Below are positions 25,546 through 62,686 of a DNA stretch of 64,000 bases, piece by piece (positions within the stretch are counted from its first letter, which is position 1; the number at the start of each line of letters is the position of its first letter). The stretch covers positions 1 through 64,000 of the forward strand of contig JAJXWD010000003.1 in the NCBI GenBank assembly GCA_021781835.1, given 5' to 3'. The position numbers and the translations under genes are program-made. The notes below the pieces were generated by a model. It saw nothing but the letters and a program-made list of their open reading frames with translations, was not told the origin of the DNA and did no database searches. This stretch comes from Pseudomonadota bacterium. Lineage in GTDB: Bacteria > Pseudomonadota > Alphaproteobacteria > Acetobacterales > Acetobacteraceae.

Positions 25546-25583
25546 GGCGAATGAACTCAGCCGGCGGTAGAGTGATATGGGGG

Positions 25584-25624
25584 GCTTGCGTCTGGCGACG
25601 CAATCCAAACCAATATCGATCTAA
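25584..25624 (-). repeat. Family-A dispersed repeat, half copy
   Basis: Reverse complement TTAGATCGATATTGGTTTGGATTGCGTCGCCAGACGCAAGC matches the left arm of the copies at 34.4, 43.7 and 62.6 kb. Confidence 0.85.
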
Positions 25625-31129: not shown

Positions 31130-31159
31130 ATACCAGTCAGCCTCAAGGCTGACTGGTAT
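31130..31159. repeat. Family-C palindromic repeat copy 1
   Basis: ATACCAGTCAGCC-TCAA-GGCTGACTGGTAT. Confidence 0.9.
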
Positions 31160-34368: not shown

Positions 34369-34429
34369 GGCGTTTACCCGCGCCGCCGAACCGGGCAGAC
34401 TGCCGCGCCATCTGGGTCTTCAGCGGTTA

Positions 34430-34531
34430 GATCAATATTGGCTTGGATTGAGTCGGCAGACGCCAGCCAAACCAATGAAATTGATCGTTAAAATATAACT
34501 AGAGCGGGTGCGTCATAACGCATCCCGCTCT
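34430..34531 (+). repeat. Composite 102-bp palindromic element (family A 57 bp + 14-nt spacer + family B 31 bp), copy 1
   Basis: GATCAATATTGG...CCAATGAAATTGATC, then AGAGCGGGTGCGTCATAACGCATCCCGCTCT; matches the reverse complement of 62526-62627. Confidence 0.92.
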
Positions 34532-34557
34532 AGCTGAAGACCCAGGGCTTTGTTTTA

Positions 34558-34617
34558 ATACCAGTCAGCCCTGAGGCTGACTGGTATGCGCGTGAGGTTG
34601 GTGGGGCGGCCACGCGC
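34558..34617. repeat. Family-C palindrome copy 2 plus adjacent GCGCGTG...CACGCGC hairpin
   Basis: ATACCAGTCAGCCCTGAGGCTGACTGGTAT followed by GCGCGTGAGGTTGGTGGGGCGGCCACGCGC. Confidence 0.9.
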
Positions 34618-42260: not shown

Positions 42261-43688
42261 ATGACCCAAAATCTGAAATTCTACATCGACGGCAAATGGG
42301 TGGACCCGGTGGTGGCCAACCCGATCGCCGTGATCGACCCCGCCACCGAGGCGGCGTTTACGGAAATCTCGGGCGGGTCGAAGGCGGATGTGGACAAGGC
42401 GGTGGCGGCGGCCAAGCGGGCGTTTCGGAGCTTTTCGAAAACCAGCCAGACCTACCGGCTGGAATTGCTGAAAACCTGCCTGGAAGTTTACAATAAACGC
42501 TATGACGACATCGCCGCGGCCTGCACGCGCGAAATGGGCGCGCCGCTCAGCTTCTCGAAAGAGGCCCAGGTGTGGGTGGGGCAAGGGCATTTTCAGGCGC
42601 TGATCGACAAGCTGGAGCGGTTTGAATTTTTCGAGACCCGCGGCAGCACCCGCGTCGCGCTCGAGCCCATTGGCGTGTGCGGGCTGATTACGCCCTGGAA
42701 CTGGCCGCTGAACCAGATTGTGTGCAAGGTGGCCCCCGCCCTGGCGGCGGGCTGCACCATGGTGCTGAAGCCTTCGGAGATCGCGCCCCTCAACGCGCTG
42801 ATTTTCGCCGAGGTGATGCATGAGGCGGGCGTGCCGGCGGGGGTGTTCAATCTGGTCAACGGCACGGGGCCGGATGTGGGGCAGAAGCTGGCCGAGCACC
42901 CGGATGTGGACATGATGAGCTTCACCGGCTCGACGCGGGCCGGCATCATCGTGGCGCGCGAGGCGGCCAATACGGTCAAGCGCGTGTGCCAAGAGCTGGG
43001 CGGCAAATCGGCCAATATCTTGCTGCCCGACGTGGATTTGGAGGATGCGGTGCGCAAGGGCATCGGGGCGTGCTTCATCAATACCGGGCAAAGCTGCGAT
43101 GCCGCCACCCGCATGCTGGTGCCGCGCCTGCTGCATGACCAGGCGGTGGCGATTGCCGCCGACGAGGCCGCCAAACAGACCACCGGCAACCCGTGGGACG
43201 CCGGCACCGTGCTCGGGCCGCTGGTGAGCGAGCTGCAATGGAACAAGGTCCAGAGGCTGATCAAGGCCGGGATCGATGAGGGCGCCACGCTCGCCTGCGG
43301 CGGGCTGGGGCGGCCAGAGGGGCTGAACAAGGGCTATTATGCCAAGCCGACCGTGTTTGGGAATGTGACGCCGGGCATGACCATCGAGAAGGAGGAGATT
43401 TTTGGGCCGGTGCTCTCGATCATCCCCTATGACACGCTCGACCAGGCGATCGAGATCGCCAATGACACGGTCTATGGGCTGGCGGCCTATGTACAGAGCC
43501 GGGATCTGGGCAAGGCCCGCGAGGTGGCCGCCGAGATGCGGGCGGGCAGCGTTTACATCAACTACCCCGACCTTGATTTCGCGGCGCCTTTTGGCGGCTA
43601 CAAGCAATCGGGCAATGGGCGCGAATATGCGGATTTCGCGCTGCATGATTTTCTGGAGATCAAGGGCATTGTCGGGTACGGCGGTTAG
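42261..43688 (+). CDS. aldehyde dehydrogenase family protein
   Basis: ITPWNWPLNQIVCKVAPALAAGCTMVLKPSE..., CQELGGKSANILLPDVDL, FINTGQSCDAATRMLVP. Confidence 0.95.
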   Translation: MTQNLKFYIDGKWVDPVVANPIAVIDPATEAAFTEISGGSKADVDKAVAAAKRAFRSFSKTSQTYRLELLKTCLEVYNKRYDDIAAACTREMGAPLSFSKEAQVWVGQGHFQALIDKLERFEFFETRGSTRVALEPIGVCGLITPWNWPLNQIVCKVAPALAAGCTMVLKPSEIAPLNALIFAEVMHEAGVPAGVFNLVNGTGPDVGQKLAEHPDVDMMSFTGSTRAGIIVAREAANTVKRVCQELGGKSANILLPDVDLEDAVRKGIGACFINTGQSCDAATRMLVPRLLHDQAVAIAADEAAKQTTGNPWDAGTVLGPLVSELQWNKVQRLIKAGIDEGATLACGGLGRPEGLNKGYYAKPTVFGNVTPGMTIEKEEIFGPVLSIIPYDTLDQAIEIANDTVYGLAAYVQSRDLGKAREVAAEMRAGSVYINYPDLDFAAPFGGYKQSGNGREYADFALHDFLEIKGIVGYGG

Positions 43689-43725
43689 ATCAATATTGGT
43701 TTAGAGTGAGTCGACAGATGCAAGT
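43685..43725 (+). repeat. Family-A dispersed repeat, half copy
   Basis: TTAGATCAATATTGGTTTAGAGTGAGTCGACAGATGCAAG; contains the ALDH stop codon. Confidence 0.85.
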
Positions 43726-43726
43726 C

Positions 43727-43779
43727 ATACCAGTCAGCCCTGAGGCTGACTGGTATGCGCGTGGGGGGCGGCCACGTGC
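43727..43779. repeat. Family-C palindrome copy 3 plus adjacent GCGCGTG...GCCACGTGC module
   Basis: ATACCAGTCAGCCCTGAGGCTGACTGGTAT then GCGCGTGGGGGGCGGCCACGTGC. Confidence 0.9.
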
Positions 43780-62508: not shown

Positions 62509-62525
62509 CCCCGCCACCGGCCCTT

Positions 62526-62627
62526 AGAGCGGGATGCGGTGTAACGCACCCGCTCTGAGCCTGTTTTAGCGATCAATTTCATTGGTTTAGCTTGCGTCTG
62601 TCGACGCACTCTAAACCAATATCGATC
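62526..62627 (-). repeat. Composite 102-bp palindromic element (family B + 14-nt spacer + family A), copy 2
   Basis: AGAGCGGGATGCGGTGTAACGCACCCGCTCT-14 nt-GATCAATTTCATTGGTTTAG...CTAAACCAATATCGATC; reverse complement of 34430-34531. Confidence 0.92.
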
Positions 62628-62686
62628 CAAGGGCGCGTAACGCCGCGCGGGCAGCCATCCTTTAACCGCACGCGTTTACGGCGCCA

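Follow-up and report, generated by a model that had tools for sequence, protein, structure and literature searches.

Two copies of a composite palindrome, lying in opposite orientation on one bacterial contig, raise the question of what kind of element they represent and by what means it has spread. The window analysed here is a stretch of 64,000 nucleotides from a member of the Acetobacteraceae (contig JAJXWD010000003.1), and the original prediction described its two copies as a nonautonomous REP/BIME- or MITE-like element. The MITE part of that reading has stood, whereas the REP/BIME part, which implies a RAYT transposase, has been given up. The element is probably a two-hairpin MITE of the CIR type, which inserts at YTAR sites with duplication of TA and is moved in trans by an IS630-type transposase. 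It looks like a new branch of a known, poorly understood alphaproteobacterial repeat class, and its family offers a likely answer to how such repeats move.

The element in the window

Re-inspection of the sequence placed the copies at 34430-34531 and 62526-62627, in opposite orientations and exactly as predicted, each consisting of a 57-bp imperfect palindrome, a 14-nt spacer and a 31-bp palindrome. Between the two copies, the 57-bp parts show 8 differences, whereas the 31-bp parts vary in the loop only, again in agreement with the earlier description. The natural unit takes in the flanking TA dinucleotides and measures 105 bp (Table 1). In copy 2, the left TA has mutated to TG, and GCGTC is found instead of GANTC. 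In the window, the 18-mer AAACCAATGAAATTGATC and the pattern of the 31-bp palindrome each occur 2 times, where 0.02 and 0.00 occurrences, respectively, would be expected, and the folding z-scores of the two copies are -6.6 and -9.1. A second palindromic repeat, ATACCAGTCAGCC..GGCTGACTGGTAT, is also present in the window at 31130-31159, 34558-34587 and 43727-43756; one of its copies lies just 3' of element copy 1 and another is fused to a truncated element copy.

Table 1. Features of the element and its insertion site in the window
Feature	Position	Strand	Remarks
Copy 1 with flanking TAs, 105 bp	34428..34532	+	Covariance model E 2.3e-23
Hairpin 1, 57-bp imperfect palindrome	34430..34486	+	First ~30 nt like IS630-family ends
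GAGTC (GANTC, CcrM recognition sequence)	34450..34454	+	Hairpin 1 near apex, offset 23-27 from left TA
GAA bulge, 3' arm of hairpin 1	34477..34479	+	Kept while adjacent stems covary
A-rich linker	34487..34500	+	
Hairpin 2, 31-bp palindrome	34501..34531	+	
Interrupted 13-bp hairpin, left arm	34412..34424	+	Followed by GGCTTTGTTTT in joined site; copy 1 in its GGTTA loop
Interrupted 13-bp hairpin, right arm	34533..34545	+	Empty site CTGGGTCTTCAGC-GGTTA-GCTGAAGACCCAG
Copy 2 with flanking dinucleotides	62525..62629	-	Between two convergent ORFs
Truncated copy, hairpin 1 left half only	25568..25623 (near)	-	
Truncated copy, hairpin 1 left half	43685..43728 (near)	+	Runs into another palindromic repeat

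Copy number and distribution

The copy count proposed at the outset gives about 100 copies in the genome. With up to 3 mismatches allowed, the same 18-mer has 103 matches across the whole genome, whereas the reversed control has 0. A single-query search returned at least 43 full or near-full-length copies with 86-100% identity among the best candidates scored; these statistics come from fetched loci, and the totals vary with the completeness filter. Three identical copies occupy different genomic sites, and tandem copies show a period of 103 bp, which corresponds to 101 bp plus one TA.

The genus is Acidocella going by the named matches (Acidocella aquatica), and matches were found in 16 of the 36 other genomes searched among genus relatives. 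Within the genus, the number of copies per genome ranges from 0 to about 100, and the subfamilies are genome-specific. Further named matches belong to Acidiphilium, a MAG labelled Rhodovastum, Rhodospirillales MAGs and further Acetobacteraceae; a literature search for papers that name both MITEs and Acidiphilium found none. The covariance model R1, whose E-values are rough, detects two-hairpin relatives in further families of the Alphaproteobacteria. Among 288 genomes searched across the class, relatives were present in at least 11 further genomes, several of them multi-copy, and this count is a lower bound because stricter filters were applied there. Some of the class-wide relatives have longer second arms, and in many of them GAACC replaces GANTC. 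Two (L335 and L347) are about 137 bp long, are matched by the model on both strands and consist of two hairpin-1-like arms and a linker.

Fold and covariation

The anatomy of the element was derived from alignments of 85 own-genome copies and of 50 diverse copies (alignment A1). The consensus runs from TA through hairpin 1 (57 nt), an A-rich linker of about 14 nt and hairpin 2 (about 31 nt) to a closing TA; the element is 101-103 bp long and non-coding. The arms of hairpin 1 read GATCAAT+ATTGG... and ...CCAAT+GAA+ATTGATC, so that the 3-nt GAA bulges out of the 3' arm at 7 bp from the foot, and the consensus of hairpin 2 is AGAGC...GCTCT.

The covariation check, run on the 50 copies of A1, revealed that both hairpins covary strongly. 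In this alignment 94.6% of cells pair, and both sides have changed in 17 of 32 pairs as compared with 7.0 in shuffles, none of the 500 shuffles being as high. When the structure was slid along A1 as a control, no more than 23-44% of cells paired. The count leaves out the inside of hairpin 2, because subfamilies differ in register there. The GAA bulge is conserved though the adjoining stems change, for example from ATTGG..CCAAT to ATGCG..CGCAT. Pairing is constrained in hairpin 1 and in the outer stem of hairpin 2. In three copies (L057, L077 and L083) hairpin 2 is seemingly flipped, with AGAGCGGGATGCG.. in place of AGAGCGGGTGCG.., which suggests palindrome inversion.

Insertion target and empty sites

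The left flank is TA in 66 of 84 readable copies, and C or T precedes the TA in 80. The right flank is likewise TA, followed mostly by G or A, which defines a YTAR target. An exact CTAG palindrome was considered as the target and rejected, since the bases to the left and right of TA vary independently. Empty sites were sought by joining the flanks with one TA and searching relatives, and orthologous sites were located in one of these, genome G007. Precise empty sites with a single TA each were found there for L012 (TTAG, within CTTAG), L024 (CTAA) and L053 (TTAA); those for L012 and L024 are the upstream gene's stop codon, at the same codon. At the sites of L013 and L007, G007 is without the element, and the stop at this same codon reads TGA. 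The copies are thus separate YTAR insertions, each of which duplicated TA. Taken with the roughly 100 copies and the covariation, the TA duplication and the empty sites bear out the proposed nonautonomous MITE-like family with conserved stems and variable loops.

Two further loci were compared with G007. A copy that seemed to interrupt a gene (L027) marks instead a within-gene deletion of several hundred bp relative to G007 (L329), and the gene-interruption reading was rejected. At L083 and L362 (G007:C8:84335-84653), the element occupies the orthologous site in both genomes with different subfamilies, either as an old shared insertion that diverged later or as two insertions.

The original prediction also advised a search for a RAYT-like transposase. 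A RAYT gene (NCBIfam NF047646, E 1e-56) is indeed present on the window's contig, but its flanks carry a different repeat. At this locus (G000:C10:90649-90978; L354:1441-1974), inverted copies of GTAG+GGTGCAATGCC..GGCATTGCACC lie on either flank, and no copy of the element adjoins it. The RAYT and its GTAG repeat form a separate REP system on the contig. A REP/BIME element moved by this RAYT, a Y1 tyrosine transposase acting on single-stranded hairpins, would agree with covarying hairpins and a conserved bulge. However, Y1 transposition without target duplication predicts neither two flanking TAs nor a symmetric YTAR preference, which makes this origin highly improbable.

Gene context

Gene context was assessed with a simple GC3-based ORF caller, and the ORF calls are uncurated. 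Most copies lie at gene 3' ends, which make up 79 of 110 flanks; of 55 copies, 28 are flanked by convergent genes and 4 by divergent ones, and none of 57 lies inside an ORF called in this way. The stop codon is often formed by the terminal TAG of the element: in 24 of 55 classified copies (manual count) the adjoining ORF ends exactly on it. In the same loci, stop codons make up 16% of the YTAR sites that fall outside ORFs, so some enrichment of insertions at stop codons is likely, though a truncated in-frame ORF would look alike. Additionally, two copies, L001 and L028, copy 1 of the window being among these, lie in hairpin loops closed by perfect stems of 13 and 11 bp. Flanking stems of at least 8 bp were found at 3 of 38 copies, where re-pairing of the flanks gives an expectation of 0.3. 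An insertion that hits a stop codon or the loop of a terminator would persist because it does little harm, insertion into TAA or TAG leaving TAG. In the host transcript, the hairpins probably act as a 3'-end or terminator-like structure.

The same location and the strong covariation could also be expected of a host-selected RNA or DNA element, serving mainly in 3'-end processing or termination, or as a nucleoid or CcrM site, with past mobility as a secondary matter. Against this stand the range from 0 to about 100 copies within one genus, the genome-specific subfamilies, the orthologous loci without copies and the identical copies at different sites, and avoidance of coding sequence can explain the location. 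Such a primarily functional origin is therefore considered quite unlikely.

Resemblance to known repeats

By architecture, the element looks like one of the CIR repeats, reportedly the Caulobacter CcrM-associated intergenic repeats described by Chen and Shapiro in 2003, and it resembles a RIME-like rhizobial repeat. The rhizobial query, which we take to be RIME-like, was confirmed by search as a multicopy rhizobial repeat. This repeat of Rhizobium and Sinorhizobium shares with the element its size (106 bp between the TAs), an A-rich linker and a second hairpin; in both, the 3' arm of the first hairpin is bulged, the bulge of the rhizobial repeat measuring 4 nt and lying about 8 bp from the foot. 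The two have no detectable nucleotide similarity, and matches between them with covariance models fall at the exact boundaries but are weak (E 0.007-0.64). A RIME-like copy on Rhizobium johnstonii pRL11 (L357) starts on the last three bases of an acyl-CoA dehydrogenase gene, a stop-codon placement like that of the Acidocella element.

A 2007 review describes CIR as repeats of about 110 bp that end in TA and are built of two inverted-repeat arms plus a linker, one arm having GANTC at its apex or close by; they are set apart from other repeats, RUP included, by the two arms plus linker, and are listed with no TIR, TSD unknown and mobility unexplained (PMC2229807). The element agrees with them, by description and not by sequence, in the length of about 110 bp, the two arms with linker, the TA termini, GANTC near an apex, intergenic sites and alphaproteobacterial hosts. 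It differs in showing a short TIR, TA duplication and similarity to IS630 ends, and its GANTC is not universal. Bru-RS of Brucella are palindromic intergenic repeats of 103-105 bp (PMC2267715) associated with IS711, which targets YTAR and duplicates TA (PMC2266754); the element is like them in length, palindromes, intergenic location and the YTAR target, a likeness again of description and not of sequence. RUP of Streptococcus pneumoniae is a 107-bp MITE with a TA target, an IS630-like TIR and proposed trans-mobilisation (PMC2229807), all of which recall the element, whereas its host belongs to a different phylum. The earlier statement that the family had not been described is thus upheld for the sequence, which matched nothing in Rfam or in the 72,556 plasmids searched, and falls for the architecture, which fits the described CIR class and resembles the RIME-like repeat.

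A candidate IS630 partner

From sequence comparison, we infer that an IS630-type transposase mobilises the element, because IS630 ends in the genus are like the left hairpin and carry GANTC at the same offset. DDE_3 (IS630-family) elements with TAGAGC ends about 1.05 kb apart occur in genomes G007, G018, G017 and G031, and those of G022 and G016 have TAGAGT ends. The Acidocella IS630 resembles the element in its TAGAG-type ends, TA flanks and GAATC at offset 23-27 of one end; unlike the element, it is about 1.05 kb long and encodes a transposase, in G007 in two ORFs that overlap and carry HTH and DDE_3 domains. G007 carries both the element and this candidate partner. Its IS630 copies end TAGAGCGTGGTTGGTTTTGATTGAATCGG, the element ends TAGATCAATATTGGTTTGGATTGARTCGR, and hairpin 1 is similar in its outer arm to the IS ends. 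Beyond TAGAKC, two of these IS ends match the own-genome consensus left end at 16/24 and 14/24 positions (p ~9e-5 and ~5e-4, respectively, for each single comparison; the pool contains family members, and the IS was chosen after screening about 60 transposase loci). The likeness is moderate; apart from TAGAGC, the right end has little in common with the IS, and several of the end comparisons gave weak matches. A search of the genome to which the window belongs, a fragmented assembly of 75 contigs, turned up no close IS630 relative, the best having 30% identity and different ends; the IS630 on contig C46 was rejected as partner as its ends do not match the element. Furthermore, neither covariation nor a bulge is required of a simple DDE MITE, which counts against this reading.

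The YTAR/TA target alone does not identify IS630, because IS711 of Brucella also duplicates TA at YTAR. With the link of IS711 to Bru-RS (PMC2266754), an IS5/IS427-type (IS711-like) transposase might have moved the element instead. However, no screened DUF4096 (PF13340) locus of the genus has TAGAKC ends, whereas five DDE_3 (IS630) loci have them, and DUF4096 is without a match in the window's genome, so that an IS5/IS427-type mobiliser is unlikely.

Under the preferred IS630 reading, elements with TAGAGC ends would supply the DDE transposase in trans. The enzyme would recognise both ends of the MITE through TAGAKC and a short subterminal stretch (ATTGGTTT in the element), cut at TA and re-insert the MITE at another YTAR. 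For the CIR class, the family provides empty sites at orthologous loci, YTAR/TA as the target and, within the one genus, an IS630 as candidate partner, and with these the question of CIR mobility becomes testable.

GANTC and CcrM

GANTC is found at offset 23-27 in 38 of the 50 elements aligned in A1 and is absent in the other 12. Near the apex it is present in 50 of 63 own-genome copies and in 43 of 53 copies from other genomes. Its N covaries with the partner base (G-C in 24 rows, A-U in 21), and its A is mostly kept even where the partner does not pair. Among the seven IS630 copies with recognisable TAGAG-type ends, six have GAATC at offset 23-27 of the transposase-proximal (upstream) end (L247, L248, L249, L251, L252 and L254), although not all of these are independent, L251, L252 and L254 being close relatives and L248 and L249 likewise. 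The genome has a CcrM homologue, which scores E 5e-180 against NF050803, under that Caulobacter-specific cut-off, with its RAMA domain above cut-off.

Since the GANTC offset of the element equals that of the transposase-proximal IS630 end, CcrM methylation of the apex site may affect transposition or transposase expression, and the common offset hints at a connection with the cell cycle, which is open to assay. Dam is known to tie IS10 transposition to replication. A broader proposal would unite CIR, RIME-like repeats and Bru-RS in one class-wide superfamily of IS630-mobilised MITEs with transposition gated by CcrM; GANTC at offset 23-27 would then be hemimethylated only after passage of the fork, which would couple transposition to replication. 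This extension is speculative and seems rather doubtful at present. The ccrM homologue (L355:700-1785) itself has a copy of the element, L057, exactly at its stop codon.
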